A DNA stretch of 39,510 nucleotides from a virus (IMGVR_UViG_3300020200_001135:1-39510); one strand, 5' to 3'. Shown: positions 21,095-37,996, counted from the stretch's first letter. The notes: generated from the letters alone by a model not told the origin. Made by a program: numbers and translations.

Positions 21095-21110
21095 TAGAGA
21101 GGAATAAAAA

Positions 21111-21908
21111 ATGGCATCTTATGCAAGCTATAAAAAAATACTAAGTGAATCAATTGGTCAAGGTGTTGTTACTGCTAGTAGCATTACATCTCCATTAAAC
21201 ACTACTTATGGTGTTCAATGGTTTTTTGGAACTCCAGGTGTATGTTCTTCAGGTTGTTGCTGCCTCTGGACAGTTCCTTCTGGAGTAAAAAAACTCCAAA
21301 TTCAATTATGGGGTGCTGGTGGAAGCGGTAGTGGTGCATGTTCATGTAACCGTTGTCATCACTATAGAGGATCTGGTGGAGGAACATATAATGTTAAAAC
21401 GATTAATGTAACTCCTGGTTGGACATACACTGTTTGTGCTGCTGGTGTATATCCCTGCTGTAACTTTGAATGTGTTGGGTGCGAAGGATGTTCTTCATAT
21501 GTTAATGGATGTAATTTAAGTAACTTCTGTGCTGTTGGTGGTGGGCAAGGATACGCTAACACTGATTGGACAGAAACTTGCAACTCAGTAATGCATTGTT
21601 GCGTTGCACCTACTAGTAATGGTGGAGATTGGTATCAAATTACTCATACTGGAACTTGGTCTGCTGCAGAATTTGTTTATGATAGAGGATTCTGCCATTG
21701 TTATAGTCAGGCTATGTACAATAGCGGAGCTGCACTAATTGGTACAGTATCTACACAATCAATTAGAGAGTGTTGGATTCGTTGTGGATGCTGGCACGTT
21801 CCTTATGGTAATGGTGGACAGAGTGCAATGACCACCTATTGTGGAAATGGTCATTGTGGTCAGTCTGGAATGGGTGGTGGTGGACTTGTAAAGATCACAT
21901 TCTTCTAA
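21111..21908 (+). CDS. Gly- and Cys-rich virion-type protein, copy 2 (265 aa)
   Basis: A paralogue of the gene before it, 16 bases downstream with a GAGG ribosome site, carrying 25 cysteines. The conserved blocks are the same: CCCLWTVPSGV, LWGAGGSGSG, CSCNRCHH, VNGCNLSNFCAVGGGQG, ECWIRCGCWHVPYG and YCGNGHCGQ. The variable part lies between the conserved CCVAP and CWIRC blocks (about residues 165-225). There copy 2 has its own sequence (WYQITHTGTWSAAEFVYDRG) with several extra residues. This pattern, a constant frame with one variable window, suggests the window faces a binding partner. Long identical DNA tracts shared with copies 1 and 3 suggest recent duplication or gene conversion. Confidence 0.8.
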   Translation: MASYASYKKILSESIGQGVVTASSITSPLNTTYGVQWFFGTPGVCSSGCCCLWTVPSGVKKLQIQLWGAGGSGSGACSCNRCHHYRGSGGGTYNVKTINVTPGWTYTVCAAGVYPCCNFECVGCEGCSSYVNGCNLSNFCAVGGGQGYANTDWTETCNSVMHCCVAPTSNGGDWYQITHTGTWSAAEFVYDRGFCHCYSQAMYNSGAALIGTVSTQSIRECWIRCGCWHVPYGNGGQSAMTTYCGNGHCGQSGMGGGGLVKITFF

Positions 21909-21938
21909 TTCTAAATATAACTATAAGGATCATCAAAA

Positions 21939-22724
21939 ATGGCACAGTATTCAAATTATAAAAAAGTTAGCGGTGCAACTTTACCTAACGGATCCATTTC
22001 GGCGTCCCAACTAAATGCAACTGGATTAGATACTTGGTGTGTTAAGTGGATTTATGGAGACCCAAACGCATGTACATCTGGTTGTTGCTGCCTCTGGACA
22101 ATCCCTTCTAACGTAAGAAGAGTAACATTTGAACTGTGGGGTGCTGGTGGAAGCGGTTCTGGATCTTGTTCTTGTAACCGTTGTATGATTTTTGGTGGTG
22201 CTCAAGGTGGGTATTACAATACAAAAACTATCGACGTAACACCTGGTTGGACATACACTGTTTGTGCTGGTGGAGTATATCCCTGCTGTAACTTTGAACA
22301 GTGCGGTTGTCAAGGATGTACTACATATGTTAATGGATGTAATTTAAGTAACTTCTGTGCGATTGGTGGACATGGTGGATTCTCGGAAAATAGTTGGGCA
22401 CTTGCTTGCTATTCTGAGTGGTCCTGTTGTTTAGGTCCTGGCAGCAATGGAGGAGACTTTGGAATGGGACCTCATAGAGGTCATTATTGGAGACCAAGAG
22501 GAATATTCTGTCATTGCCATGGCACATATACAATTCCAACTTCGGCACCATTCATTGGAACAAATGTTATGACCTCAATGAATTTCTGTTGGATTCGTTG
22601 TGGTTGTTGGACAGTTCCTTATGGGCACGGAGGAATGAGTGCTACAACTACATATTGCGGATCTGGACACTGTGGACAAGGCGGAATGGGTGGTCCTGGA
22701 CTAGTAAAAATTACTTTTGTATGA
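21939..22724 (+). CDS. Gly- and Cys-rich virion-type protein, copy 3 (261 aa)
   Basis: The third tandem paralogue, with 26 cysteines. It keeps the MAQYSNYKK start, CCCLWTIPSNV, LWGAGGSGSG, CSCNRC, VNGCNLSNFC, CWIRCGCW and YCGSGHCGQ blocks. However, the two His after CSCNRC are replaced by MI, and HV after CGCW is replaced by TV. It also has an additional Cys near residue 34 (DTWC). The loss of several His but not Cys argues more for disulphides, or for metal bound by Cys alone, than for a strict Cys/His site. It is followed by a strong terminator. Likely a fibre-tip or decoration protein like its neighbours; function inferred only. Confidence 0.8.
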   Translation: MAQYSNYKKVSGATLPNGSISASQLNATGLDTWCVKWIYGDPNACTSGCCCLWTIPSNVRRVTFELWGAGGSGSGSCSCNRCMIFGGAQGGYYNTKTIDVTPGWTYTVCAGGVYPCCNFEQCGCQGCTTYVNGCNLSNFCAIGGHGGFSENSWALACYSEWSCCLGPGSNGGDFGMGPHRGHYWRPRGIFCHCHGTYTIPTSAPFIGTNVMTSMNFCWIRCGCWTVPYGHGGMSATTTYCGSGHCGQGGMGGPGLVKITFV

Positions 22725-22753
22725 TATAATATAATTTCGTGTGAAGGAAGTGT

Positions 22754-22783
22754 ATGGGGTGCAAACCGCGCCCCATTTTTTTT
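22754..22783 (+). terminator. Rho-independent terminator after Cys-rich genes
   Basis: ATGGGGTGC (22754-22762) pairs with GCGCCCCAT (22768-22776), nine pairs with one G-T, around loop AAACC, followed by eight T. The end of the T run overlaps the next late promoter. Confidence 0.9.
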
Positions 22784-22790
22784 ATAAATA
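22783..22790 (+). promoter_or_regulatory. T4-type late promoter (TATAAATA)
   Basis: Exact T4 late consensus, beginning at the last T of the terminator run and 38 bases before the ATG at 22829, with an AAGGAG sequence in the leader (22797-22802). Confidence 0.8.
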
Positions 22791-22828
22791 TATGTGAAGG
22801 AGTCAACCTGAACAAAGAGACAAAAACT

Positions 22829-23539
22829 ATGGCAACAACACAAATTAGTGTAGAATATGATCTTCTACTACCAAACGATTATTTGATCGACCATTCTACC
22901 AGCGAAGGAAAAACCCGCAAAACAACATATCATGGACCTGATAAACTATATCTTCAAATCGGAGAAGATGGTTCTGAGATTCATGGTCCTTTAACCGAAG
23001 ATAACATCCTGGACGGTCGTCCTGTACCTGCAGATGTTGTTGAATGGGTTGAAGTTGATTGCACAAAAAATCCTTTACTATGTCAATTGAGAGGTCCTAT
23101 TGATAATAGTAAGCAAGAGGAATATACTGGCACAGTTTTAGTATCTTCAAAGACACCAAAAATTGAAGGATATCCACAATTTTCTTATAATACACCATTA
23201 ATGCCTTCTGACATTTATGATAAGTATAATATTAAAGTTGTAGACGGTGAGGTTCAAATTCCAAGATTTACTGATACTCAAAAATTACTTGATAGAAATT
23301 CAGATCTTACTTGGGATGATATCAGAGGTAAAAGAGATGATGTTTTATCAGCAACTGATGGTAAAGTAACTGAAGATATGCCAGAAGCAATGAAAGAAGA
23401 TTGGAAAAATTACCGTCAATTACTAAGAGATCTTCCAGCAACATTGCAGGCCGCTGGTGTAACACCAAATTGGGCGTTTTACATGTTCCCTGATTCTCCA
23501 GATGCTCGAAAGGCACCTAAAAATTCTTCATCCCTTTGA
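22829..23539 (+). CDS. Tail assembly chaperone-like protein (236 aa)
   Basis: ATG 22829 is chosen because the upstream frame runs through the terminator and promoter. The last 75 residues carry a form of the phage tail assembly chaperone signature: GKRDDVLSATDGKVTEDMPE, then WKNYRQLLRDLPA. The family pattern is R-LL-x-TD-W-x-PD-P followed by W-x-YR-x-LRDLP. Here the W and one Pro of the first block are changed, but the second block is intact. The N-terminal 150 residues (beta-rich, with VEWVEVDCTKNPLLCQLRGP) form a separate domain. Such proteins help fibre or adhesin folding, and the position right behind three adhesin-like genes supports that. Whether it serves those genes or the giant fibres is not decided by sequence. 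Confidence 0.75.
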   Translation: MATTQISVEYDLLLPNDYLIDHSTSEGKTRKTTYHGPDKLYLQIGEDGSEIHGPLTEDNILDGRPVPADVVEWVEVDCTKNPLLCQLRGPIDNSKQEEYTGTVLVSSKTPKIEGYPQFSYNTPLMPSDIYDKYNIKVVDGEVQIPRFTDTQKLLDRNSDLTWDDIRGKRDDVLSATDGKVTEDMPEAMKEDWKNYRQLLRDLPATLQAAGVTPNWAFYMFPDSPDARKAPKNSSSL

Positions 23540-24733: not shown

Positions 24734-25909
24734 ATGAGATCAAAAGCATTTTTTGTTAATGGTGGAGCTGGAAGAGTTATTTGCTCCATCCCTGCATTTG
24801 AAAAGTATGCAGAAACTCACAACGATTTTGTAATCGTTTGTGAAGGAGGGACTGATTTTTTCAAAGGTCATCCAACGTTAGATGGTAAAGTCTTTGATAA
24901 TTGGCATAAAGGATTATTTGAACAAGAACTTAAGCATAGAGATATTGTAACAACAGAACCTTATCGTATTTGGGAATATTATAATCAAAAATGTAGTTTA
25001 TCCCAAGCATTTGATATACAAATCAATCAATTAGATTCTTCCAGAGAACTGCCGATACCGACAATTAATCTATCTAAGATGGAAGTAATTGCTGGGTTTA
25101 ATGCTGTAGAGGAAGTTAAGCAAGGAACTGGTAAAGATAAAGTTCTTGTTGTGCAACCTTTTGGTAGATCTGTAGAAACTGTTGGTGAAGATTTTATTGC
25201 AGATCCTAGTTCTCGTAGTTTTTCTTTGAACAATATTGTAGAAATTATTAATGAATTGAAGAAAGATTATGCAGTAATCGTTATGAGTGAACTTCAATTC
25301 CCTCTTGAAAACAATGAAGATAAGTCCAAGTATAGGGTTGCTAGACCACAAATCCAAGATATGAGATTGTGGGCAGCAATTATTAATGCCTCAGATCACT
25401 TTTTAGGTTGTGATAGTATGGGTCAACACCTTGCTAGAGCATTTGGTAAGACTGCTACTGTAGTTACTGGATCAACATTCCCAATCAATATTTCTTATCC
25501 AGATTGTAAAGATTTTGATGTTATTGATGTTGGAGAAGGAAGAAGAAAATATGATCCAATTAGACTTACAATGTCTGATTGCACGACTCGTTATAATGAT
25601 CAAGCGATGGAGTTGAGTAAAGATCAAATTAAACAAGTTGTAGATTCTGTCCGTAAACGACTTGGTAAATCTGTTGCATACACAAACTATAAAAATCCAG
25701 CTTCAAAACAATCGTCTGGGTCTGGAGTAAATCCACAAAATTCTTCTCAAAATGCACTTCCACCTGCACCAACTTATGGCGTTCCGATTGGAACTGCAAA
25801 ACCACAGATTAAAAAACCAACAAAAGGATTTTTAGAAGAACTTAATAAATCATCAATACAAAAAACTGTAGATGCCCAAGTAAGTGATATTTTAAAAAAT
25901 ATTAAGTGA
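24734..25909 (+). CDS. GT9-like glycosyltransferase (391 aa)
   Basis: The N-terminus has a nucleotide-sugar enzyme-like start (FFVNGGAGRVICSIPAFEKY). The central LVVQPFGRS (around 138-146), AVIVMSELQF and especially FLGCDSMGQHLARAFGKTAT, followed by VVTGST (around 223-248), match the C-terminal fold of GT9 enzymes (DTGPMHLAAA-type motif). GT9 is the family of ADP-heptose:LPS heptosyltransferases. The last 70 residues are Gln/Ser/Pro-rich and probably disordered, ending in a short Lys-rich helix that may hold partners. GGAG sits 9 bases before the ATG. It heads the cassette with carbamoyltransferase and ADP-heptose genes, which fits a heptose donor. Donor and acceptor are inferred, and some GT9 relatives transfer other sugars. 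Confidence 0.75.
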   Translation: MRSKAFFVNGGAGRVICSIPAFEKYAETHNDFVIVCEGGTDFFKGHPTLDGKVFDNWHKGLFEQELKHRDIVTTEPYRIWEYYNQKCSLSQAFDIQINQLDSSRELPIPTINLSKMEVIAGFNAVEEVKQGTGKDKVLVVQPFGRSVETVGEDFIADPSSRSFSLNNIVEIINELKKDYAVIVMSELQFPLENNEDKSKYRVARPQIQDMRLWAAIINASDHFLGCDSMGQHLARAFGKTATVVTGSTFPINISYPDCKDFDVIDVGEGRRKYDPIRLTMSDCTTRYNDQAMELSKDQIKQVVDSVRKRLGKSVAYTNYKNPASKQSSGSGVNPQNSSQNALPPAPTYGVPIGTAKPQIKKPTKGFLEELNKSSIQKTVDAQVSDILKNIK

Positions 25910-25918
25910 GGTAGTTAA

Positions 25919-27727
25919 ATGACTCAATGGATTGCTGCGATTGCTAGAGGACATAACTCTGGAGTATGTTTATTAAAGGACGGTGAAATGGTATTTGCCA
26001 TTGAAGAAGAGAGGTTGTCTAGACACAAATACGACGGAGGTCCTCTTGCATCAATGGTTAAAATCCTTGATTATACTGATAAATTAGATTATTTGGTAGT
26101 TGCTCATACTCAACCATTAGATGATTCTTCTAGGATTGATTTTACTGGGGACAATATGTATGTGGGTCTTGCTAGAAAGTTAGGACTAATTGATCGTAAT
26201 CAAGATTTATATAATCATCCACAAGTAATAGATCTTAGTAGAACTCACCATAAACTCCATGCTGCTTGTGCTTTTTATAGATCTGGATTTGATTCTGCGG
26301 TTTCTCTTGTAGTTGATGGTGCAGGAACATTCATTCCTGTTAATATGGGAAGAAGCACGGAGATGACTTGGGAGTTGGAATCTATATTCACTTGCGAATA
26401 TCCAGCAAATATTAAAACAATTTATAAGCATCAGGCTGGTAGAGGTCCGTGGGGGTCTGCTAAAATTGCAGAATTTTCTAGTGAAGGTGAAGGTGAGGAA
26501 GGAACTCATGAGTTTGTTTTGGATGAAAGTGCGGGAATTACTAAGGCATATGAAGCAGTAACTCAATACTGTGGTTGGGCACCAATTGAAGCAGGTAAAA
26601 CTATGGGGTTATTCCCATACGGAAAACCAAACGATTTGGTCCCACAAATCTATACTGATGGTGGTGGGGGTTCTTGGAAAACTTCTGATCGAAATGTTAT
26701 AGTTCCTACATATCCCAATGGTGCTGTAGTAAATGAAGGTCGATATGAATACTTAAAGACTCCGCAAGATGTTGAAGATTTGACCAAACTGCAAAACCGT
26801 AGAGATATGGCATATGCTATTCAGGTAGAGTCTCAAGCAATGGTTTTAGATTTAATTCGTAAAGCTGTTGAGATGAGTGGCAGTAAAAATGTAGTTCTTT
26901 CTGGTGGGTATGGATTAAATTGTGTTGCTAATTATTGGTATCTTGAACAACTTAAAGATGAAGGTATTAATCTTTATGTTGAACCTGTAAGTAATGATGC
27001 AGGGACCGCCATTGGTGCTGCTTATTTGGCACATCATCAATTTACTCAAGATTCAAATGTTAGATCTAAGATTAAGGATTTATATTATGGTCCAAAATAT
27101 GACTATAGTATGAGTGAAATTCAAGAAGTATGCTCAAAGTATAATGCAACGTCTCTTCTTACAGAAGTAGAGTATGGACATATCATTGATCTTATTTGTC
27201 AAAAAAATATAGTATCAATGTATCAAGGAAGGTCTGAATCTGGTCCTCGTGCTCTTGGTAATCGCTCTATTCTTTATGATCCTAGAGATCCTCAAGGAAA
27301 AGACCATGTTAATAGAATTAAACGTCGTGAATACTTTAGACCTTTTGCTGGATCTATCCTTAAAGAACATGTTCATGAATGGTTTGATCTCCGTGGTATG
27401 GAAGACACTCCATTTATGATGTATGCTGTCAAGTGTCAGGAAGGAATAGAAGAAAAAATTCCAGCAATTATTCATGTTGATGGCACATGTAGAATTCAAA
27501 CAGTATCTGAGGATGTTAATCCTCATTACTATGGATTAATTCAAGAGTTTTATAATCAAACAGGATGTCCAATTATTTTTAATACATCATTTAATCTTGG
27601 TGGGGAACCTCTTGTTGAAACTTTAGATGATGCTGTAAGGACGCTTGCGAATTCATTAATTGAATATCTGTATTTACCAGAATATAAGTGTCTGATTGTA
27701 GTAGAAAATAGTTCGGGAGAAGAATGA
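25919..27727 (+). CDS. NodU/CmcH-family carbamoyltransferase, copy 1 (602 aa)
   Basis: A full-length member of the O-carbamoyltransferase family, which makes carbamoyl-adenylate from carbamoyl phosphate and ATP and passes the carbamoyl group to a sugar or antibiotic hydroxyl. Visible motifs are RGHNSGVCLLKDGEMVFAIE with EERLSRHK (residues 10-37), THHKLHAACAFYRSGF with the metal-binding His, VDGAG, SGGYGLNCVAN, ESGPRALGNRSIL, and in the C-terminal domain HVDGTCRIQTV and FNTSFNLGGEPLVET. All key regions appear intact. It overlaps the adenylyltransferase gene by ATGA, so carbamoylation and heptose activation are co-expressed. A carbamoyl group on heptose is known from bacterial LPS cores (Pseudomonas). 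The acceptor here is inference. Confidence 0.92.
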   Translation: MTQWIAAIARGHNSGVCLLKDGEMVFAIEEERLSRHKYDGGPLASMVKILDYTDKLDYLVVAHTQPLDDSSRIDFTGDNMYVGLARKLGLIDRNQDLYNHPQVIDLSRTHHKLHAACAFYRSGFDSAVSLVVDGAGTFIPVNMGRSTEMTWELESIFTCEYPANIKTIYKHQAGRGPWGSAKIAEFSSEGEGEEGTHEFVLDESAGITKAYEAVTQYCGWAPIEAGKTMGLFPYGKPNDLVPQIYTDGGGGSWKTSDRNVIVPTYPNGAVVNEGRYEYLKTPQDVEDLTKLQNRRDMAYAIQVESQAMVLDLIRKAVEMSGSKNVVLSGGYGLNCVANYWYLEQLKDEGINLYVEPVSNDAGTAIGAAYLAHHQFTQDSNVRSKIKDLYYGPKYDYSMSEIQEVCSKYNATSLLTEVEYGHIIDLICQKNIVSMYQGRSESGPRALGNRSILYDPRDPQGKDHVNRIKRREYFRPFAGSILKEHVHEWFDLRGMEDTPFMMYAVKCQEGIEEKIPAIIHVDGTCRIQTVSEDVNPHYYGLIQEFYNQTGCPIIFNTSFNLGGEPLVETLDDAVRTLANSLIEYLYLPEYKCLIVVENSSGEE

Positions 27728-28125
27728 TGAAAAAAGTATTTGTTAATGGTAGTTTCGATGTGTTACATACGGCACATATTTTACTCTTAAATTATGCTAG
27801 ATCTCTTGGTGATTCTTTAATTGTTGCTATCGATTCTGACGAAAGAATTAAAGAGAAGAAAGGTGAATCTAGACCAATTCATACTATTCATGAACGAACA
27901 TTTATGCTAGCAAATTTAAAAGCAGTAGATCAGGTTTGTTGGTTTGATAGTGATGAGGAATTGGATGGACTTGTCAAACATTTTAGTCCTGATATAATGG
28001 TAGTTGGATCTGACTGGGAAGATAAAAAAGTAATCGGATCAGAACATGCAAAAGAATTAAAATTTTTTGAACGCATAAATGGATACTCAACAACAGAAAC
28101 AATTGAACGTATTACTAATCGGTGA
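27724..28125 (+). CDS. rfaE2: Heptose-1-phosphate adenylyltransferase-type domain protein (HldE C-terminal half)
   Basis: A 133-residue cytidylyltransferase-fold protein that matches the C-terminal domain of HldE. It has VFVNGSFDVLHTAHILLLNY (GxFDxxHxxH, with Ala in place of the usual Gly in HxGH), DSDERIKEKKGESRPIH, ERTFMLANLKAVDQV, VGSDWEDK and the C-terminal GYSTTETIERI, which is the ISTE-type nucleotide motif. The reaction is D-glycero-beta-D-manno-heptose 1-phosphate plus ATP to ADP-heptose. It is translationally linked to the carbamoyltransferase gene (ATGA) and its last 47 bases overlap the kinase gene. A relative acting on glycerol-3-phosphate (TagD) is the main alternative, but the adjacent HldE kinase half and HldD argue for heptose. 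Confidence 0.85.
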   Translation: MMKKVFVNGSFDVLHTAHILLLNYARSLGDSLIVAIDSDERIKEKKGESRPIHTIHERTFMLANLKAVDQVCWFDSDEELDGLVKHFSPDIMVVGSDWEDKKVIGSEHAKELKFFERINGYSTTETIERITNR

Positions 28126-28855
28126 AACTTGTGAAGACGGATATATCTATGGAAGCGTAGATAGAATTAGTCCTGAGGCACCAATACCTGTTTTAAAATA
28201 TGAAGGATTAGAGACTTCTCTTGGCATGTCTGCTAATGTCAAGAGAAATCTTGAGTCTCTGGGTATATTCGTTAATCATATTACAAATAAATCTTTAATT
28301 AAAAAAACAAGGATTATTCATAGTGGATCTAATCAACAAATGTTGAGGATTGATGAAAATGATTTGGTGGATTCGATTAAACCTTCAGAAGTTAGAAGTG
28401 CATTTTTGCATTTATCCTATGATGCAATAGTTATATCTGACTATGATAAGGGGTTTTTAACTACAGAAGATCTTAAAATTATCTGCAAAAATTTTAATGG
28501 TCCAGTCTTTATTGATACTAAAAAAAAGGATTTATTTACAGAACCAAATGTAATATTTAAAATTAATCAAAAAGAATATAATAATTTAATTACAAAACCA
28601 GATCCAAAACATTTAATTGTTACTAAAGGATCTTTAGGTGTTGAATATTGTGGTTCGATTTATCCAACAAATCAGGTAACTGTTTTTGATGTGGTTGGTG
28701 CTGGTGATACATTCCTTGCAGCATTTGCATATTCATTTTTAACTCATAATAACAACATAGAATATGCAATTAATTTTGCTAATAGAGCAGCAGCAATATC
28801 CGTTCAGCACTATGGATGTTATACTTTAACCCAAGAAGATATTAGGAGTATCTAA
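28079..28855 (+). CDS. rfaE1: Heptose-7-phosphate kinase-type protein (HldE N-terminal half, PfkB family)
   Basis: This 258-residue PfkB-family kinase opens with LLIGETCEDGYIYGSVDRIS and PEAPIPVLKY, the specific start of HldE/RfaE1 kinases, then SLGMSANVKRNLESLG. The C-terminal VFDVVGAGDTFLAAFAYSF is the PfkB catalytic motif with the GAGD base. It phosphorylates heptose 7-phosphate at C1. It is shorter than the usual 310-residue domain; the stretch between about residues 60 and 110 looks trimmed. In most bacteria this kinase and the adenylyltransferase are one protein in the opposite order. Here they are two genes, kinase second, overlapping by 47 bases in different frames. ATG 28079 gives the family-like start; a TTG at 28103 is the alternative. 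Confidence 0.87.
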   Translation: MDTQQQKQLNVLLIGETCEDGYIYGSVDRISPEAPIPVLKYEGLETSLGMSANVKRNLESLGIFVNHITNKSLIKKTRIIHSGSNQQMLRIDENDLVDSIKPSEVRSAFLHLSYDAIVISDYDKGFLTTEDLKIICKNFNGPVFIDTKKKDLFTEPNVIFKINQKEYNNLITKPDPKHLIVTKGSLGVEYCGSIYPTNQVTVFDVVGAGDTFLAAFAYSFLTHNNNIEYAINFANRAAAISVQHYGCYTLTQEDIRSI

Positions 28856-29187
28856 TGAAAACATATTGTATCGATATTGATGGTGTTATTGCCCAACACA
28901 ATGGTATTTGTAATACTTGTAAATATGAATCATCAACTGCTATAACAGAAAATATTGAAAAAATAAACAAGTTATATGATGAAGGAAATATTATTAAGTA
29001 TTTTACTGCAAGAGGTATGGTTACTTATAGTGATGATTCTAAGATGGCATCTGCTAGGTGGAAGGAACTTACAGAGTTACAACTTAGAATTTGGGGATGC
29101 AAATATCATTATTTAATTATGGGTAAACCCTCTGCAGACTACTACATAGATGATAAGGCTATAAATTCTGATGACTTCTTCAAGTAA
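28855..29187 (+). CDS. Small HAD-family phosphatase (110 aa), possible heptose phosphatase
   Basis: A minimal HAD hydrolase: CIDIDGVI with D7 and D9 (nucleophile and acid/base), T51 in FTARG (motif II), K91 in MGKPSADYYIDD (motif III) and D99/D100 (motif IV). It has no large cap domain. Members of similar size remove phosphate from sugars in capsule and nucleotide-sugar clusters. In the ADP-heptose pathway a 7-phosphatase (GmhB) is required between kinase and adenylyltransferase, and this gene is the only candidate here. It is smaller than GmhB (about 190 residues) and lacks its zinc loop, so the role is inferred from context. It starts in the stop of the kinase gene (TAATG) behind an AGGAG site. 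Confidence 0.8.
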   Translation: MKTYCIDIDGVIAQHNGICNTCKYESSTAITENIEKINKLYDEGNIIKYFTARGMVTYSDDSKMASARWKELTELQLRIWGCKYHYLIMGKPSADYYIDDKAINSDDFFK

Positions 29188-29524
29188 AATAGTACCTAAA
29201 GGTTGGGGTTATGAGAAGTGGATAGTTAATAATGAAAAATATTGTGGTAAACTTTTATTCTTTGAACGTAATAAAAGATGCTCATGGCATTATCATAAAG
29301 TAAAAGATGAAACTTTTTACTTACAAAGTGGAAAAATTTATTTGTGGTTTGGTTGGGATGAAGATCTTGCAAAAGCAAAGATGAAGATTATGGAACCAGG
29401 AGATTCATTCCATGTTCCTGTGGGATTAAAACATCAAATGATTGCTCTAGAAGATTCTGAACTTTTTGAATTCTCGACAGAACATTTTGAAGAAGATAGT
29501 TATAGGGTTATAAAAGGTGATTGA
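29171..29524 (+). CDS. Single-domain cupin (117 aa)
   Basis: A one-domain cupin resembling the C-terminal part of phosphomannose isomerase/GDP-mannose pyrophosphorylase-type proteins: PKGWGYEKWIVNNEKYCGKL, then SWHYHKVKDETFYLQSGKIY with metal ligands H40, H42 and E47, and PVGLKHQM with H88. All four ligands of the cupin metal site are present. Such proteins act as sugar-phosphate isomerases, epimerases or binding proteins. Its place between the HAD phosphatase and HldD raises the possibility that it handles a heptose phosphate, but there is no direct evidence. It overlaps the previous gene by 17 bases. Confidence 0.8.
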   Translation: MTSSSKIVPKGWGYEKWIVNNEKYCGKLLFFERNKRCSWHYHKVKDETFYLQSGKIYLWFGWDEDLAKAKMKIMEPGDSFHVPVGLKHQMIALEDSELFEFSTEHFEEDSYRVIKGD

Positions 29525-30107
29525 AAGAATAGATGAATTAATTTTAGAATTTGACAATATCATTCCAGATCATTGGTGTGATTTGATGGTTGACTGGTTT
29601 CATGCAAATTCTGATCTACAAAAAGATGGTAGAGTTGTTAATAATACTGATGAAGATGCTGTTCTTTTAGACTTTAAACTTGCAACACAATCTATTGTTC
29701 CATTTCAAACACCAATGTTTGATTTAATGAGTAAAATATGTCATATATCATATGATGAATTTTTAAAAACAGTTACTAATGCTCCAGTAGATGGGATATA
29801 TTTTAGAGATTACACAATAAGAATTTATGAAAAAGGCAAAGGAATTTTTAAACCACATGTAGACCAACATGCTGGAGGAACAGTAACCAGATTGTTTACT
29901 ATAATTGTTTATTTAAACGATGTTTATGATGGTGGAGAAACTGAATTTCCAACTTATAATAAAAAAGTAAAACCAAAAAAGGGAAAGGTTTTAATGTTCC
30001 CTTGCAACTTTTTATATTTACATCAAGGAAATATTCCAATCTCTAATGACAAATATATTGCTACAGCATTTGTTAATTTTAGACCACCAAAAGACTGTCC
30101 ATGGTAA
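29517..30107 (+). CDS. Prolyl 4-hydroxylase-like 2OG-Fe(II) oxygenase (196 aa)
   Basis: A prolyl 4-hydroxylase-type dioxygenase: YTIRIYEKGKGIFKPHVDQH (H114, D116), TIIVYLNDVYDGGETEFPTY, KGKVLMFPCNFLYLHQG (H169) and K179 in SNDKYIATAF (2-oxoglutarate carboxylate contact). The full iron and cosubstrate set is present, so it is probably active. The start is taken at GTG 29517, overlapping the cupin stop by 8 bases; no in-frame ATG fits the family N-terminus. Phage members may hydroxylate proteins or small molecules; the target is not visible. It ends one base before the convergent epimerase gene. Confidence 0.86.
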   Translation: MIERIDELILEFDNIIPDHWCDLMVDWFHANSDLQKDGRVVNNTDEDAVLLDFKLATQSIVPFQTPMFDLMSKICHISYDEFLKTVTNAPVDGIYFRDYTIRIYEKGKGIFKPHVDQHAGGTVTRLFTIIVYLNDVYDGGETEFPTYNKKVKPKKGKVLMFPCNFLYLHQGNIPISNDKYIATAFVNFRPPKDCPW

Positions 30108-30108
30108 T

Positions 30109-30915
30109 TTAAATCTTCAAATAATCCTCAATAGATTTAAATTTATAATCACCAATCCATTTCATATCTGCACAAGTATATGATTGGTACTTACCTTTTA
30201 AATGATTTGGGAAGGGAATGTTCTTGATAGTTCCCTTTTCTTTTTTTGCAACTAATTCTGCTACATGTTGAAATGATACTGGAGACCCTGTTCCAAGGTC
30301 GTAGATGCCGCTCTCAGCGTTATTGTAGAGAACAATATTAACAACATCATCAACGCATACAAAGTCTCTGAGGAAGCGTTCAGAACCTTCAAAGAGATTT
30401 AATTCTCCCGTCTCTCTAATTTCTTTTGTAAATTTACTTACAGGACTTGCTTGATTACCTTTGTGCTCTTCACCATCACCATAAACATTAAAGTATCTAA
30501 AACCTTGAATGAAAGAAAACTTTTCTATGTTATCTAAAACAGTATAATCAACTTGTAGTTTTGAGATAGCATATTGATTCAATGGATTAATTGAACCCTT
30601 CGGTTGGTGAATTGTTTGATTCCCATAAACAGATGCTGATGACGCATACTTAACTGGGATTTCATATTCAATAGCTTTGTTTAAAAGAGCACACGAAAAT
30701 GCTACATTATAATGCCAAAGTTTTTGCAAATCTCTTTCTGTAGTTGAAGAGATTGCTCCTTGGTGAAGAATAAGACTGACGTTCTTCCAATCATCAAAAT
30801 CTTTAAACAATCTCCAGGAGTCTTCTTGATCAATTAAAAGTATATCTTCACCACTATTTAATTTATTTGCAAAGTGCCTCCCAATAAAACCTGATGAACC
30901 TGTTAATATAATCAT
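30109..30915 (-). CDS. hldD: ADP-glycero-manno-heptose 6-epimerase-like protein (268 aa)
   Basis: An extended short-chain dehydrogenase: the N-terminal LTGSSGFIG binds NAD(P), ASSASVYG and NQYAISK give the catalytic Ser and Tyr-x-x-x-Lys, and GFRYFNVYGDGEEHKGNQAS is a near-specific HldD signature (usual form RYFNVYGPxExHKGxMAS). The later FLRDFVCVDDVV and GIYDLGTGSPVSFQHVAELV also match. HldD converts ADP-D-glycero- to ADP-L-glycero-manno-heptose, the last step before transfer. At 268 residues it is shorter than the bacterial enzyme (about 310). It lies on the opposite strand, directly convergent with the rest of the heptose genes, and 64 bases upstream of its ATG a fibre gene is read in the other direction. 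The separate orientation suggests a different acquisition or timing. Confidence 0.88.
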   Translation of the reverse strand: MIILTGSSGFIGRHFANKLNSGEDILLIDQEDSWRLFKDFDDWKNVSLILHQGAISSTTERDLQKLWHYNVAFSCALLNKAIEYEIPVKYASSASVYGNQTIHQPKGSINPLNQYAISKLQVDYTVLDNIEKFSFIQGFRYFNVYGDGEEHKGNQASPVSKFTKEIRETGELNLFEGSERFLRDFVCVDDVVNIVLYNNAESGIYDLGTGSPVSFQHVAELVAKKEKGTIKNIPFPNHLKGKYQSYTCADMKWIGDYKFKSIEDYLKI

Positions 30916-30939
30916 ATCTTTTTTTACAATATTATATCA

Positions 30940-30947
30940 AATAAATA
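30940..30947 (+). promoter_or_regulatory. T4-type late promoter (AATAAATA)
   Basis: AATAAATA in the divergent gap between the hldD-like gene and the fibre gene, 32 bases before the ATG at 30980. Confidence 0.6.
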
Positions 30948-30979
30948 ATATTACTGCAACAATTTTCAGGATATAACCA

Positions 30980-32548
30980 ATGGCGTCTGGATCCTTAGCA
31001 AGTAAAAGACCTACGGTTGCCTCAAAAAACGAAGTGCTATATACAGCACCAGGAGGCAAACTAGTAGAGGGTAAAGTATATATAACAAATTTAAACTCTT
31101 CTGATATTAAAGTTCGTATTGGACTGTCCACTAGTGGTCTGACAGGATTCAATGCTAATACTGGATATGTTGTTTTTGAAGAAACAATACCAGCAAATAA
31201 TTATTTTGAATCTGATGATTTATTTTTTGCAGATGGGCAAAGTATAATTATTCGTGCAGATCATACCAATTCAAAATTCACTCTTCTTGGTGTAGAGACT
31301 GAGAATAGAGAGGATGCTGGATTTTTAGCACAAGGATATTCTGCAAACAATAAAACAAGTACTTTATTGTTTACCGTTCCTACGGATTATAAACAACTTA
31401 AAGGTAATTTATTCATTTGTAATAGAGGTTCTTTTGATGCTAAGGTAAGAGTTGGTCTTGGATCGACACCAACAGATTACATCGAATATAATTATGTTGT
31501 AAAGAGAGGAACAACTCATTTTAGATCTGATCTTAGAGCTAGTGGTGGAGATGTTTTTTATATTAGATCCGATCAGGATCTTGCAAATTTTGTTCTCACT
31601 GGAACGTATGAGAACTTTGTTGCATTCCCTGGAGATGTTGGTATTGGATCAACATTGCAAGCACAAAATGCATATATTAAAGATACAGTAAGTATTGGTG
31701 TAACATCTTCCGCAGGAAATGCATTAAAAGTAGTTGGCGATTCCTCATTTTCAAAATTAACTACTACTGATGATATAGTTGTTGGGCAACATTTAAGAGT
31801 AACAGGAATATCTACATTCACAGGAACAGTTACATTCCTTGGTGGAACAGTTAACGTTGGTACTGGAACAGCAACTGCGATTGTTTTAAATGCAAACGTT
31901 AGTTCTAACGTAACTCCATCTGCAACAAATACCTATGATTTGGGGCAAGATTCTCAAAAGTGGAGATATGTTTACTGTTCTGATACTATTATTGGTAAAG
32001 ACTTTAGCGTTTCTGGAATCTCAACAATAGGAACTATTGGTGCTGGTGCAACTCAAACACAAATTGTTGTTGGTGGCGCTAATACTTCTATTGTTACATC
32101 AAATTCTGTTGCAATTAATGGTGACTTAATTCTTAAAGGTCAGGTTGGAGTTGGAACAACAACTCAAAAACAATTAAGATATAGTGAAGCATCTGATCAA
32201 CTTCAAATTTGGAATAAGTCCTTAAATAGATGGTTGCCTGTAATGGGTGTAGATGATCTTCACGCAACAGTAACAGCAAACTATACGGCAAAAGCATTTT
32301 CAACAATTTGGTTTGATACTCTAACTAGTGGTGCATTTACTATTACTTTACCATCTTCTCCAACACAAGGAGATAGAATTAGATTTATTGATGTAACTAG
32401 AAATGCAGCAGTTCAAAACCTAACAATTGCAAGAAATAGTCAACCTATCATGGGTGATGCTGAAGATCTTACTGTGACTACAGAAGGTGCATCATTTGAA
32501 TTAATGTATTATAATGGAACAAGAGGTTGGATTATGCTGCCTGTATAA
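30980..32548 (+). CDS. Tail fibre-type structural protein (522 aa)
   Basis: Residues about 10-210 contain two copies of a beta domain: one with VEGKVYITNLNSSDIKVRIG, IPANNYFESDDLFFADGQS and FTLLGVE; the other with LKGNLFICNRGSFDAKVRVG, GTTHFRSDLRASGGD and FVLTGTYE. Residues about 215-420 are fibre-type strands (ISTFTGTVTFLGGTVNVG, NTYDLGQDSQKWRYVYCSDT). The last 90 residues are a cap with FTITLPSSPTQGDRIRFIDV, LTIARNSQPI and a final TRGWIMLPV, clearly related to the end of the 1284-residue protein. It is probably a fibre with an anchoring head, shaft and trimeric cap. It is the only structural gene inside the sugar-enzyme region, so those enzymes may decorate it. Confidence 0.8.
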   Translation: MASGSLASKRPTVASKNEVLYTAPGGKLVEGKVYITNLNSSDIKVRIGLSTSGLTGFNANTGYVVFEETIPANNYFESDDLFFADGQSIIIRADHTNSKFTLLGVETENREDAGFLAQGYSANNKTSTLLFTVPTDYKQLKGNLFICNRGSFDAKVRVGLGSTPTDYIEYNYVVKRGTTHFRSDLRASGGDVFYIRSDQDLANFVLTGTYENFVAFPGDVGIGSTLQAQNAYIKDTVSIGVTSSAGNALKVVGDSSFSKLTTTDDIVVGQHLRVTGISTFTGTVTFLGGTVNVGTGTATAIVLNANVSSNVTPSATNTYDLGQDSQKWRYVYCSDTIIGKDFSVSGISTIGTIGAGATQTQIVVGGANTSIVTSNSVAINGDLILKGQVGVGTTTQKQLRYSEASDQLQIWNKSLNRWLPVMGVDDLHATVTANYTAKAFSTIWFDTLTSGAFTITLPSSPTQGDRIRFIDVTRNAAVQNLTIARNSQPIMGDAEDLTVTTEGASFELMYYNGTRGWIMLPV

Positions 32549-32555
32549 TTTGACT

Positions 32556-32567
32556 GATATATAATTT
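32556..32567 (+). promoter_or_regulatory. Possible promoter element GATATATAATTT
   Basis: A TATAAT-type -10 (32560-32565) lies 19-26 bases before glutaredoxin. No good -35 is seen. The same 12 bases occur at 35114-35125 before another gene. Confidence 0.35.
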
Positions 32568-32585
32568 GTAAAGTTAAGTAACAGT

Positions 32586-32825
32586 ATGAAATTTACAGTT
32601 TATTCTAAGGACGGTTGTCCATATTGCAGTAAGATTGAACAACTTCTTCAAGTAGCAGAACTTCAGCACGTTGTTTATAAATTGGGAAGAGATTTTAATC
32701 GTGAAGAATTCTACGCTGAGTTTGGACCAGGTTCAACCTTCCCTCAAGTGATTATGGATGATAAACATCTTGGTGGATGCACCGACACAGCAAGATATCT
32801 AAAAGAAAATAATATTATTAACTAA
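32586..32825 (+). CDS. Glutaredoxin
   Basis: A 79-residue glutaredoxin with the dithiol site C11-P-Y-C14 in YSKDGCPYCSKIEQLL, the TFPQVIMDD segment containing the cis-Pro, and GGCTD for glutathione binding. It reduces disulphides, classically ribonucleotide reductase in T4-like phages (NrdC role), using glutathione. The length is normal for a phage glutaredoxin. Its stop codon overlaps the stop of the convergent bilin reductase gene by four bases. Redox maintenance of the Cys-rich virion proteins is an open but unsupported idea. Confidence 0.95.
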   Translation: MKFTVYSKDGCPYCSKIEQLLQVAELQHVVYKLGRDFNREEFYAEFGPGSTFPQVIMDDKHLGGCTDTARYLKENNIIN

Positions 32826-33472
32826 GCAAGATCAAATAGGAACTCATTAATATATTTTCTTGCAAAAGTTTTATCATAATACGACTTTAAGATTCCATAA
32901 GCTGGATCTGTATATGACAAATGATAATCATAACCTTTTTGAAATGTGTGGGATGATTCCATCCCACATTTTTTTATGCAATGATTATATCGACTCAGAT
33001 ATAACTCTAGTTTGTCTAAGTATTCTTGGTAAAAGTTAAGGCCATCTGTTTTTAACCATAACTTTTTAGAGAAGTATGTGTTTAAATCGTATATTTTTGA
33101 ATCTTCTTTAACCCTATTTGGTTGATCTCCAAGGTATGGTTTAATATACTTATCCTCATAATCACTGTCCATTTTTAATGGATGAAAATCAATCGTTCCA
33201 AAGAACTTTTTATTGGCACATGAAACATATTCAGTTCCAAAAACTGGATTAATATATTGGAAGTCTGGATATATAACAAGGGACTCCGCAATGAACTTAT
33301 CCTTTATATTAAGTTCGCAAAGTCTAATTCTCCTTAACTCATCGGTTCTCCAAACGTAAGATTTTATACTTGAGTTATTATCTTTTACTTCTTTATCTAA
33401 CCATTTGGGAAGATCAACTTCAACTAGGTTGGGATAAACTTTAAATAATATATCTCTTACATTCATCAGCAC
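32822..33472 (-). CDS. Ferredoxin-dependent bilin reductase, PebA/PebS-like
   Basis: A 216-residue member of the family that reduces biliverdin with ferredoxin electrons. Compared from memory with PebA and phage PebS, the order is kept: SSIKSYVWRTDELRRIR, VIYPDFQYINPVFGTEYVSC, IDFHPLKMDSDYEDKYI, DLNTYFSKKLWLK, EYLDKLELYLSRYN, and the end YTDPAYGILKSYY with YINEFLFDL. The second catalytic Asp (D189, equal to PebS D206) is present. The first (PebS D105) is Glu here (E81), and the position of PcyA H88/PebS N88 appears to be S64. It may make 15,16-dihydrobiliverdin or phycoerythrobilin. The changed active site leaves product and activity open. It is on the reverse strand, like an independently gained unit; AATAAATA on that strand (33488-33495) may be its promoter. 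Confidence 0.82.
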   Translation of the reverse strand: MLMNVRDILFKVYPNLVEVDLPKWLDKEVKDNNSSIKSYVWRTDELRRIRLCELNIKDKFIAESLVIYPDFQYINPVFGTEYVSCANKKFFGTIDFHPLKMDSDYEDKYIKPYLGDQPNRVKEDSKIYDLNTYFSKKLWLKTDGLNFYQEYLDKLELYLSRYNHCIKKCGMESSHTFQKGYDYHLSYTDPAYGILKSYYDKTFARKYINEFLFDLA

Positions 33473-33495
33473 GTCACTAATATCTTATATTTATT

Positions 33496-35115
33496 ATGAA
33501 AATTCTAACCATTTTTTCTGGACACGATGCATCTGCGACTATCGTAAAAGATGGTGAGATTGAATATTACTTTAAGGAAGAACGTTATAATAAAAAAAAG
33601 CATTCTGGCGGTCATGCATGTATTTTTGATATTATATTAAATAACTTTTTAACTGATGTTGACTATGTAATATTTTCCTCTTCGGATAGACTAGAAGATA
33701 AGAATAAAAAAGATAGATTGTTATATTCAAAGAATAGTAACATTAAATTTTTAGATCCAAAATATCAACACCATTTATTCCACTCTGCTGGTGCTTTTTA
33801 TGCGAGTGGATTTGATAAGTCTTTAGTTCTTTGTATTGATTCCGCAGGTGGATATCCAATTGATCCTGAAGTCTTTGAATGCGATTCTGTGTATGTTGCT
33901 GAGTATCCATGCAAATTTACTTCTTTATATAAAAGATATTGGACTGCAAATTTAGAAAAAAGATTTGATAAAACTTTGAATGGATGTAGGCATGTCAGCA
34001 AACATGCGAGCGATGAAATAAATATTGGCAATCTTTATAACAGTGCTGCACTTGCAATAGGACAAACAATCGATGATTGTGGTAAGGCAATGGGGTTATC
34101 TTCATATGGATTACCCGCAACTCAATTAAAATTTTTTGGAGAAAGGATATCTGCAGTTAATGCAATTAAAAAATACTTTAAGAAGTATCCAAAACTATTG
34201 GATTACATGATAGATTTTAAAGATGATGTTAAGTATTCTATGGAGATAACTCAAGATAATTATCAATTTTTTGCAAACTATTGTTGTGAAGTTCAGAGGC
34301 AATGTCAAGAACAAGTTTGTAATTTGATTGAGAAGTATGTAAATGAAACTGGAATAAAAAAAGTTTGCATTACTGGTGGTTATGGTATGAATATAATCAC
34401 CAACTATGAGTTATTAAAAAGATTTGATGATGTTGAATTTTATTTTGATCCAATGTGCGATGATGGTGGATTGAGTATTGGTGCTTCTATGTATTCTTAT
34501 AGGAAGTTAACTGGAGATTCTAAAGTTATTCCAATTAAAGATACTTTTTTTCATGGTTTAAAGCATGATGTATCTCAATATCAGGGTGAGTTTGCTGATG
34601 AAAAATCGGTTGCAGAACTGCTTTATAATAATAAGTCTGTTGCAGTATACAATAACCTTGCAGAGGCGGGTCAGAGGGCACTAGGGAACCGTTCTATACT
34701 GTTTAACGCACTGAATCCCAATGCTAAGGATATTGTTAATAAAATTAAAAATCGAGAGTGGTATAGACCATTTGCTGCTATAGTTCTTGAAGAGGATGCC
34801 CATCTTTACTTTGATGGGGTGGTTCCAAATCCATTTATGACTGTCTGCTTCCCTGTTAAAACAGATTTGATTCCAGGGGTGACACATGTGGACAATACGT
34901 GTAGAATACAGACTGTCAATTCTGGGCACTTGTATACTATTTTAAAAGAGTTCAAGCACTTGACAGGGCATGGTATCCTATTAAATACCAGTTTTAATTT
35001 GGCAGGAGAACCTTTAGTCGAAACTCCACAAGATGCATTTAGGACTTTAAATTCTTCTGATCTTGATTATCTTTGGTTTTACGAAACAAAACAGTTGTTT
35101 AATTTCACTTTTTGA
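33496..35115 (+). CDS. NodU/CmcH-family carbamoyltransferase, copy 2 (539 aa)
   Basis: A second, more AT-rich and shorter O-carbamoyltransferase. It has the canonical GHDASATIVKDGEIEYYFKE (residues 9-28), then QHHLFHSAGAFYASGFD, SGGYGMN-type TGGYGMNIITN, EAGQRALGNRSIL, HVDNTCRIQTV and LNTSFNLAGEPLVETP. All motif regions are present, so it appears functional. It differs from copy 1 throughout, so it is not a recent duplicate; they may act on different acceptors. It is divergent from the bilin reductase (only 23 bases between the start codons) and ends just before a promoter-like sequence. A role in the same glycan system as copy 1 is inferred. Confidence 0.9.
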   Translation: MKILTIFSGHDASATIVKDGEIEYYFKEERYNKKKHSGGHACIFDIILNNFLTDVDYVIFSSSDRLEDKNKKDRLLYSKNSNIKFLDPKYQHHLFHSAGAFYASGFDKSLVLCIDSAGGYPIDPEVFECDSVYVAEYPCKFTSLYKRYWTANLEKRFDKTLNGCRHVSKHASDEINIGNLYNSAALAIGQTIDDCGKAMGLSSYGLPATQLKFFGERISAVNAIKKYFKKYPKLLDYMIDFKDDVKYSMEITQDNYQFFANYCCEVQRQCQEQVCNLIEKYVNETGIKKVCITGGYGMNIITNYELLKRFDDVEFYFDPMCDDGGLSIGASMYSYRKLTGDSKVIPIKDTFFHGLKHDVSQYQGEFADEKSVAELLYNNKSVAVYNNLAEAGQRALGNRSILFNALNPNAKDIVNKIKNREWYRPFAAIVLEEDAHLYFDGVVPNPFMTVCFPVKTDLIPGVTHVDNTCRIQTVNSGHLYTILKEFKHLTGHGILLNTSFNLAGEPLVETPQDAFRTLNSSDLDYLWFYETKQLFNFTF

Positions 35116-36731: not shown

Positions 36732-36943
36732 TGTCTAGTGGATTTGGTGCTGATAAAAATAAAAATGGTAAGGCAGTTGTTGTAATTAATGATGATGAAG
36801 TAAATAAAATTCTAAAAGAATATAAGAAAATTAAAAAATATATGAGGTCTTCCTTATATAAAGTTAAAACTCTTGATGGGACAGAAGATGTAGTTAAGAA
36901 TCTTCTGGATGAATATGGTGACACTACAGATGAACTCGTCTGA
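36731..36943 (+). CDS. Small charged phage protein (70 aa)
   Basis: The start overlaps the previous stop (TAATG). The product has a VVVINDDEVNKILKEYKKIK core, then KTLDGTEDVVKNLLDEYGDT. It is highly charged and helical, with a coiled-coil-like stretch around residues 18-40. No family with known function is recognised. It probably belongs to the same transcript as its overlapping neighbours. Confidence 0.65.
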   Translation: MSSGFGADKNKNGKAVVVINDDEVNKILKEYKKIKKYMRSSLYKVKTLDGTEDVVKNLLDEYGDTTDELV

Positions 36944-37643
36944 CTTTTGCAGTTTTGATTGGGATGAATATAGAAAACAAGTAGGTGAATGTGTATCTAA
37001 AAAATACTTTCTAGATTACAACCCAATTAATATTGAGTTAGAAAAATTTGATGCGTTTTATGTATCAGAGAAATATAAAATTGTTTATATTCCAATATCA
37101 AAAAACGCATCAACATCACTAAAAAATTTAATTGACTTTGAACCTGTGTATCAAATACCAAAGGTTCAAAGTCAATTTGATTTGGAGATACCAGAGAAAT
37201 ATAAAAAAGATTATAGAGTCCTGATTGTAACGAGACACCCGAAAGACCGTTGGGTATCTGGGTTTAATCAGTTCCTTAGTGATGTGGGTATCTATTTGGC
37301 ATCAAAAGAATCAAAAGATATTTTATTGGAGTTAAAGAGTAATAAATTTATATTTGATGGACATACGTTGCCTCAGTTTAGTTTTATTGATTATTGTTTC
37401 CAACCTTCTAAAATTAATTTTGATATTCATTTGATTAAAATGGATGAATATTTTAATAAAAAACTATCAGATTTCATTGGTTGTGATATATCTTTAAGTA
37501 AGAAAAATTTAATGGAAAGAGAATACTTAAAGATTAAAAATCATGAGATATGTTATAAAATTTTTAATGATTATTGTTTAAGACAAAAAAAATTCGTAGG
37601 GGTATACAATCAAGATTATGTCCTTTATAATAGTTCTAAATAA
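36930..37643 (+). CDS. Sulfotransferase-family protein, copy 2 (237 aa)
   Basis: It shows both PAPS-binding signatures: VYIPISKNASTSLKNLI (residues 52-68, 5'-phosphosulfate loop) and LIVTRHPKDRWVSGFNQF (residues 98-115, 3'-phosphate loop). The middle part DGHTLPQFSFIDY and the C-terminal YCLRQKKFVGVYNQDY also fit short sulfotransferase-2 type enzymes acting on carbohydrates. The start is uncertain: ATG 36930 overlaps the preceding gene by 14 bases, and ATGs at 36909 and 36915 are possible. It is not close in sequence to the reverse-strand member at 1285-1905 outside the motifs. The acceptor is unknown; a surface glycan or virion sugar is a reasonable guess. Confidence 0.8.
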   Translation: MNSSDFCSFDWDEYRKQVGECVSKKYFLDYNPINIELEKFDAFYVSEKYKIVYIPISKNASTSLKNLIDFEPVYQIPKVQSQFDLEIPEKYKKDYRVLIVTRHPKDRWVSGFNQFLSDVGIYLASKESKDILLELKSNKFIFDGHTLPQFSFIDYCFQPSKINFDIHLIKMDEYFNKKLSDFIGCDISLSKKNLMEREYLKIKNHEICYKIFNDYCLRQKKFVGVYNQDYVLYNSSK

Positions 37644-37654
37644 AAAAATGTCAA

Positions 37655-37996
37655 ATGTTTAATGTAGCGATGGGGAAGCATTATCTATTGAATTTGTATG
37701 GGTGTTCTTTTGTCTTATTAGATGACCAAGAATACCTTATAGGTTTGTTAGAGGCAGCAGCTAGTAGTAGTGGTGCCACGGTAGTCAATACAATTTTTAA
37801 AAAGTTTGACCCTCAAGGGGTAACTGTATTAACTTTACTCTCTGAAAGTCATATTAGTATTCATACTTGGCCTGAGAAGGGAGAGGCAGCAGTAGATTTA
37901 TTCACTTGTGGTAATTGCAATCCAAAAATTGGATGTGATATGATTATAGAACAGTTATATGCAACAAATCACACTTTAAGTTATATAGAAAGATGA
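37655..37996 (+). CDS. speD: S-adenosylmethionine decarboxylase
   Basis: The bacterial-type (class 1B) SAM decarboxylase, a pyruvoyl enzyme that supplies aminopropyl groups for spermidine. It has GKHYLLNLYGCSF, DPQGVTVLTLLSESHISIHT and WPEKGEAAVDLFTCGNC. Self-cleavage is expected between E64 and S65 (the ESH motif), with H70 and C85 as further catalytic residues; all are present. The length (113) is near the family norm of 120-130. speD is a frequent cyanophage auxiliary gene, probably tied to polyamines for DNA compaction or host metabolism. ATG 37655 is used; ATG 37670 would also keep the core. It overlaps the next small gene at ATGA. Confidence 0.96.
   Translation: MFNVAMGKHYLLNLYGCSFVLLDDQEYLIGLLEAAASSSGATVVNTIFKKFDPQGVTVLTLLSESHISIHTWPEKGEAAVDLFTCGNCNPKIGCDMIIEQLYATNHTLSYIER

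Follow-up and report, generated by a model that had tools for sequence, protein, structure and literature searches.

A cyanophage gene cluster for a predicted ADP-heptose pathway with a cupin and a small HAD protein as candidate replacements for GmhA and GmhB

The DNA analysed here, called the window, is the IMG/VR virus record IMGVR_UViG_3300020200_001135, a fragment of 39,510 nt with cyanomyovirus-like gene content, and it carries a cluster of sugar genes from 24734 to 30915. The cluster opens on the plus strand with a GT9-fold protein, P0001 (24734..25909; T4-GC302, phrog_8954), a candidate heptosyltransferase, followed by a NodU/TobZ-type O-carbamoyltransferase, P0002 (25919..27727; T4-GC303), an HldE-C-like putative heptose-1-phosphate adenylyltransferase, P0003 (27724..28125; T4-GC304), a compact HldE-N-like putative heptose-7-phosphate kinase, P0004 (28079..28855; T4-GC305), a small HAD phosphatase, P0005 (28855..29187; T4-GC306), a cupin, P0006 (29171..29524; T4-GC307), and a 2-oxoglutarate (2OG)-Fe(II) oxygenase, P0007 (29517..30107), which is an optional and less well conserved member. 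It ends with an HldD-like putative ADP-heptose 6-epimerase, P0008 (30109..30915; T4-GC308). A first-pass annotation made from the sequence had described these genes and a second carbamoyltransferase as lying together, mostly with overlapping starts and stops. All nine genes are present and overlaps link those from P0002 to the 2OG oxygenase (25919-30107), but the HldD-like gene is on the minus strand and the second carbamoyltransferase stands outside the overlapping run.

Heptose families were the best NCBIfam matches of the three Hld-like proteins, each below its equivalog cut-off. The kinase matched TIGR02198 at 153 bits (cut-off 345), P0003 matched TIGR02199 at 116.8 bits (cut-off 181.5), with glycerol-3-phosphate cytidylyltransferase as the next unrelated family at 63.6 bits, and P0008 matched TIGR02197 at 223 bits (cut-off 274.6). 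The kinase keeps the GAGD motif and, through two internal deletions, lacks about 50 residues present in HldA, and P0008 retains the Ser, Tyr, Lys and second Lys of E. coli HldD in the alignment. The window therefore has homologues of the kinase, adenylyltransferase and epimerase, as does the bacterial ADP-L-glycero-beta-D-manno-heptose pathway (GmhA, HldE, GmhB and HldD). It differs from that pathway in that GmhA and GmhB are missing and a cupin and a small HAD are found there, and in that HldE is split, with its halves in reversed order and the enzymes compact.

The sole NCBIfam match of the HAD protein was TIGR01689 (EcbF/BcbF), at 28.5 bits against a cut-off of 162, and the GmhB profiles TIGR00213 and NF050049 gave no match to it. 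The HAD motif residues D7, D9, T51, K91 and D100 were invariant across nine relatives, and we infer that the protein acts in place of GmhB in removal of the 7-phosphate. In RefSeq and PHROGs, T4-GC306 is labelled 'phosphoheptose isomerase' and T4-GC307 'cysteine dioxygenase' or 'nucleotidyltransferase' (L002-L006, L248, L249, L260; phrog_1238, phrog_7851). Both RefSeq labels are contradicted by the domain matches, which are HAD and cupin, and the 'phosphoheptose isomerase' and 'cysteine dioxygenase' labels look like propagated misannotations. T4-GC306, a HAD of about 110 amino acids, was rejected as GmhA, and the cupin was rejected as a cysteine dioxygenase, no dioxygenase-specific family being among its Pfam and NCBIfam matches.

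The cupin has no SIS (sugar isomerase) domain, so its comparison with GmhA is one of predicted function and not of family. D-lyxose ketol-isomerases ranked first when the PDB was searched with the single sequence, and they were among several cupins in a profile search. The structural model (pLDDT 94.7) had as its top two fold matches a D-lyxose isomerase with D-fructose or D-mannose bound, and an archaeal phosphomannose isomerase also ranked high. In the alignment with 2y0o, H40, H42, E47 and H88 of the cupin match H69, H71, E82 and H137, which we take to be the metal ligands, and K45 matches K80, presumably the neighbouring Lys; all five cupin residues were invariant in 171 of 171 relatives. 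The protein thus carries the His, His, Glu, His and Lys set of the D-lyxose/mannose cupin isomerases, and the Pfam family Lyx_isomer (PF07385) was matched by 25 of its 46 relatives at E<=0.01. The cupin D-lyxose/D-mannose isomerases (2y0o, 7nzo-7nzq) and type II phosphomannose isomerases (7zvy and that of phage S-SCSM1) have this fold and the His/His/Glu/His ligands, and they run the type of reaction predicted for the window cupin, from a ketose to a manno or lyxo aldose. The window protein differs from them as a short single cupin, with about 22% identity to the lyxose isomerases and 25% to the S-SCSM1 enzyme, and its predicted substrate is a seven-carbon phosphate. Its assignment to the usual type II phosphomannose isomerases was rejected on the basis of this low identity and a different ligand spacing. 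Lyxose, mannose-6-phosphate and D-glycero-D-manno-heptose-7-phosphate are each formed from the corresponding ketose by a shared C1-C2 chemistry, which makes an isomerase assignment chemically natural, and we predict that the protein is a cupin-type sedoheptulose-7-phosphate isomerase that replaces GmhA. To our knowledge only SIS-fold enzymes are known for this isomerisation, and no report of a cupin-type enzyme was found in the open-access literature. The S-SCSM1 isomerase itself lies in a cluster (L257:20323-24308) that joins a carbamoyltransferase, a cupin phosphomannose isomerase, a 2OG oxygenase and GDP-mannose/GDP-fucose genes, a parallel design with hexose instead of heptose.

Assignment of the cupin to the GmhA step rests on its linkage to phage ADP-heptose genes and on its presence in GDP-heptose loci and in one Parcubacterium. 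The GDP- and ADP-heptose routes have only the isomerase (GmhA) and 7-phosphatase (GmhB) steps in common. Sister phage loci join the HddA and HddC genes of the GDP-D-glycero-alpha-D-manno-heptose pathway (GmhA, HddA, GmhB, HddC) to the same HAD and cupin, whereas the window has the ADP branch. Exactly the HAD and cupin are retained in three such loci (L052, L061 and L073), with the order HddA-HAD-cupin-HddC, and in phages Bellamy and SynMITS9220M01 the cupin has HddA (279-287 bits) on one side and an HddC-like gene on the other. The Parcubacterium locus (L178) has the order heptosyltransferase II, cupin, HldE kinase, HldE-C/GmhB fusion and HldD; its kinase, GmhB and HldD exceed the NCBIfam cut-offs, and GmhA was not found in the assembly. 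HldD was also strong in four further genomes from the same class, of which two had a strong GmhA, one a weak match and one essentially none.

Searches for GmhA in the phages were negative. PF13580 (SIS_2) had no match within the window, neither GmhA (TIGR00441) nor SIS_2 was found in 26 cupin-bearing phage or viral records, a set that includes six complete isolate genomes, and no GmhA was found in 24 such records with a length of 70 kb or more. Of the 35 host-family genomes with a genuine HldE kinase, by contrast, 33 have a GmhA match. In a tblastn search with a host GmhA, no cyanophage was matched; Caulobacter phage Cr30 was, and there a SIS-type GmhA lies beside an HddA-type kinase. SIS_2 matches in four metagenome bins were uninformative, as the contigs concerned appear to be phage DNA that was binned together with host DNA. 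By profile, the ADP-heptose route set out in the first-pass annotation was recovered for its kinase, adenylyltransferase and epimerase, and GT9 was recovered in relatives, but the HAD matched no GmhB profile and GmhA itself was found in none of the phage relatives searched.

The cluster is widespread. IMG/VR scans confirmed more than 500 relatives each for the cupin and the kinase, of which 80 were kept per scan, and among the loci kept the complete five-gene core of adenylyltransferase (HldN), kinase (HldK), HAD, cupin and HldD was present in 107 viral loci. Of 43 loci that were selected by the kinase and had 3.5 kb or more on each side, 42 contained the cupin, 39 the HAD and 36 HldD, and all 31 cyanophage or marine phage records carrying the kinase have the cupin. 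Conversely, 101 cupin loci with enough flank had HldK (93), HddA (4) or neither (3), the remaining one being S-SM2, with HldK just outside the distance limit. The same module occurs in isolates P-SSM2, S-SSM7, S-CAM1, S-CAM3 and Sf-FS3, and is rearranged in S-SM2, S-T4 and Sf-CH8. The pN/pS ratios (nonsynonymous to synonymous polymorphism) of the core genes were 0.10-0.48 against seven relatives; judged by these values, the core genes are maintained under purifying selection and are therefore not debris.

No GT9 match to P0001 itself was obtained with Pfam or NCBIfam, but PF01075 was matched by 17 of its 30 relatives (best 3e-5), and the top Foldseek matches of its AlphaFold model, which has a low-confidence linker at 321-376, were the GT9 proteins 3tov, 4rap, 2gt1 and 1psw, with WaaC, WaaF and the protein heptosyltransferase TibC among the best. 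Like TibC/BAHT and WaaC/WaaF, P0001 has a D-S-x-G-Q-H motif at the position of the nucleotide site. It differs from them at the position of the catalytic Asp, which we take to be Asp13 in the N-terminal G-D-V motif of WaaC: this is Arg14 in P0001 and Arg in 90 of 90 relatives, and the WaaF-like protein of the Parcubacterium has Asp there. The BAHT/TibC protein heptosyltransferases presumably carry a four-cysteine iron finger, and no conserved Cys quartet was found among the P0001 relatives, in which only C87 and C226 are near-invariant. Both carbamoyltransferases, P0002 and P0012, have Carbam_trans_N and Carbam_trans_C over the cut-offs, and the PDB relatives of P0002 include 7xb6, GdmN and TobZ. 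Relatives of 369-385 amino acids, whose alignment to the full enzyme is confined to its N-terminal part and which adjoin 2OG oxygenases (L003:5469-6578 and L001:10294-11451), are possible half enzymes. That heptose is the acceptor of carbamoylation is suggested by the gene neighbourhood.

On these grounds we consider it likely that the cluster is a functional phage ADP-heptose pathway in which the cupin and the small HAD replace GmhA and GmhB. Sedoheptulose-7-phosphate would come from the Calvin/pentose-phosphate cycle of the host, and the cupin would convert it to D-glycero-D-manno-heptose-7-phosphate. The HldE-N-like kinase would then phosphorylate this product, the small HAD would remove the C7 phosphate, the HldE-C-like enzyme would activate the sugar to ADP-heptose and the HldD-like enzyme would epimerise it. 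Heptose may then be transferred by the GT9-fold enzyme, with O-carbamoylation added in the version found in the window. Family assignments, order and purifying selection are read from sequence, and what the enzymes do, most of all in the cupin and HAD steps, is predicted from them. The first-pass proposal of a phage-encoded ADP-heptose pathway combined with carbamoyltransferases is in this sense strengthened, by the heptose family matches and the 107 complete loci, and the cupin and HAD, which had been given no pathway role of their own, are the strongest candidates to stand in for GmhA and GmhB.

Several observations weigh against this assignment. P0006 is under the gathering cut-off of PF07385 (14.9 vs 20.8 bits), and the cupin fold is generic, with oxalate decarboxylase, CapF and KdgF scoring nearly level with the lyxose isomerases. 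Two genomes of the candidate phyla radiation (CPR) with no HldE-C match have cupins that share 60-61% identity with P0006, and in two viral loci (L062 and L071) close cupin relatives stand beside a short-chain dehydrogenase/reductase (SDR) with no heptose kinase nearby. The family may therefore not be confined to heptose; its specificity may vary, and the SDR-paired cupins hint at another substrate. The bacterial support is a single genome, since among 196 genomes of the order to which the Parcubacterium belongs none besides its own was found to have the cupin, and one Parcubacteria-class genome (G476) has HldD with no strong cupin and no convincing GmhA. GmhA and SIS_2 were also not found in six cupin-bearing cellular genomes, which are incomplete, so that this absence is weak evidence. 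The compactness of the kinase and the Arg at the catalytic position of P0001 count on the same side.

The acceptor of the sugar is the least certain part, with the virion fibre and the host envelope as the leading candidates. A virion target is favoured by S-CAM1, S-CAM3, S-SSM7 and Sf-FS3, in which the module has fibre or structural genes on one side and neck genes on the other; a relative of the tail-fibre protein next to the module is found near it in 56 of the 107 complete loci, and this protein is a possible glycan acceptor. GT9 and carbamoyltransferase genes accompany the module in 70 of the 107, as in the window. In other phages an envelope glycan is favoured by core clusters that lie in glycosyltransferase-rich islands; neither GT9 nor carbamoyltransferase is nearby in 23 of the 107, and S-SM2, S-T4 and Sf-CH8 show this setting. 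Use of ADP-heptose on host lipopolysaccharide (LPS) or capsule instead of the virion, for superinfection exclusion or receptor change, is compatible with the pathway proposed and concerns the target only. The phage-type copies in a host glycan island described below also speak for it, and we hold it to be nearly as probable as not. Both targets may occur. The broadest formulation, that cyanophages employ a new cupin isomerase and mini-HAD heptose-bisphosphate phosphatase in place of GmhA and GmhB, for the ADP- as well as the GDP-heptose route, that a bacterium does so with the cupin, and that the fibre-linked version puts carbamoylated heptose on the phage's own virion fibres in mostly heptose-free hosts, is put forward tentatively and is less probable than the pathway itself.

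The pathway could also be real with its GmhA step carried out by a host enzyme or another protein, the cupin being an accessory enzyme (an epimerase, a 3,4-ketoisomerase or a WbuC-like protein) that acts on the final sugar. In its favour, the fold is much alike among cupins that differ in function, P0006 matches WbuC below threshold, and a GmhA-like match occurs in 65 of 300 host-family genomes. Most host-family genomes lack such a match, however, the cupin is kept with the shared early steps in loci of both the ADP and the GDP route, which lead to different end products, and it takes the place of GmhA in the canonical bacterial locus L178, so that we regard an accessory role as unlikely. Synthesis of another nucleoside diphosphate (NDP)-sugar, such as an ADP-hexose or a CDP-glycerol-type compound, would agree with the sub-cut-off scores of all three Hld-like enzymes and with the resemblance of P0003 to cytidylyltransferases in the PDB as well. 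We find it improbable, given the wide margin by which heptose families lead for all three, the complete catalytic residues of the HldD-like epimerase and the HddA/HddC swap in sister loci; placement of these enzymes in other sugar pathways, which the first-pass annotation had named as a refutation of its reading, was not what the profiles gave. A decayed or passenger LPS island without a role in infection, an alternative also named there and raised for large cyanophage genomes by Sullivan et al. 2010 (PMC3037559), who asked whether such genes are functional or 'stuffer DNA', would fit the shortened kinase and epimerase but is highly improbable in view of the conserved order, the pN/pS values, the invariant catalytic residues and a five-gene core in more than 100 loci.

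The suggestion that the host may not make heptose itself gained support. A genuine HldE kinase was found in about 35 of the 300 host-family genomes, and the LPS of Synechococcus WH8102 and CC9311 contains no heptose (PMC4515613). Phage-type HldN, HAD, cupin and HldK are distributed across 28 kb within a glycan island on contig 3 of Prochlorococcus AG-409-P03 (L210, L211, L250), in which GmhA was not found and HldD was not detected, suggesting either use of ADP-D,D-heptose or loss. In the trees, the AG-409-P03 kinase and HldN nest inside viral clades, and the genes have therefore probably moved between phage and host; two host rows of the kinase tree (L186 and L191), with branches of length 10 and evidently in the wrong reading frame, were ignored.

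The module is flanked on one side by a long fibre gene followed by four open reading frames (ORFs) of 261-265 amino acids, and on the other by the tail-fibre gene mentioned above (30980..32548, plus strand; phrog_11338). The four consecutive ORFs lie at 20309-23539, and two that were scanned match phrog_4205, of unknown function; Sf-FS3 has a run of four ORFs of similar sizes at the corresponding place. The second O-carbamoyltransferase (33496..35115, plus strand) lies 2.6 kb beyond the module, separated from it by the tail-fibre gene, a glutaredoxin and a ferredoxin-dependent bilin reductase on the minus strand (32822-33472; PF05996), whose best NCBIfam match is PRK13247, of the dihydrobiliverdin type, at 98 of 263 bits. 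The closest relatives keep the bilin reductase, glutaredoxin and P0012 together. Further on are a sulfotransferase-like gene (36909-37643; PF03567, 25.6 bits) and a short stretch at about 37800-37950 with 79% identity to the S-adenosylmethionine decarboxylase gene of cyanophage S-RIM32.

The cluster itself is already known. The same genes lie beside fibres in the cyanophage LPS gene clusters of P-SSM2, S-SSM7 and S-SM2 (T4-GC 302-308), in the order of the window in P-SSM2 and nearly so in S-SSM7, and T4-GC 304, 305, 307 and 308 were reported to co-occur in such clusters; unlike here, no pathway was assigned there (PMC3037559). The SynMITS9220M01 report names heptose genes, a phosphoheptose isomerase included (PMC7378029). 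What is new is the stepwise pathway assignment, the relabelling of the HAD and the cupin, the link to the GDP route, the bacterial parallel and the predicted cupin-type isomerase. Two database labels spread by annotation transfer are corrected, and a new enzyme family is predicted for sedoheptulose-7-phosphate isomerisation. The question is raised why phages of marine cyanobacteria would make activated heptose though reported Synechococcus LPS has none, and the long-unexplained 'LPS genes' of these abundant marine phages become a defined and testable pathway.

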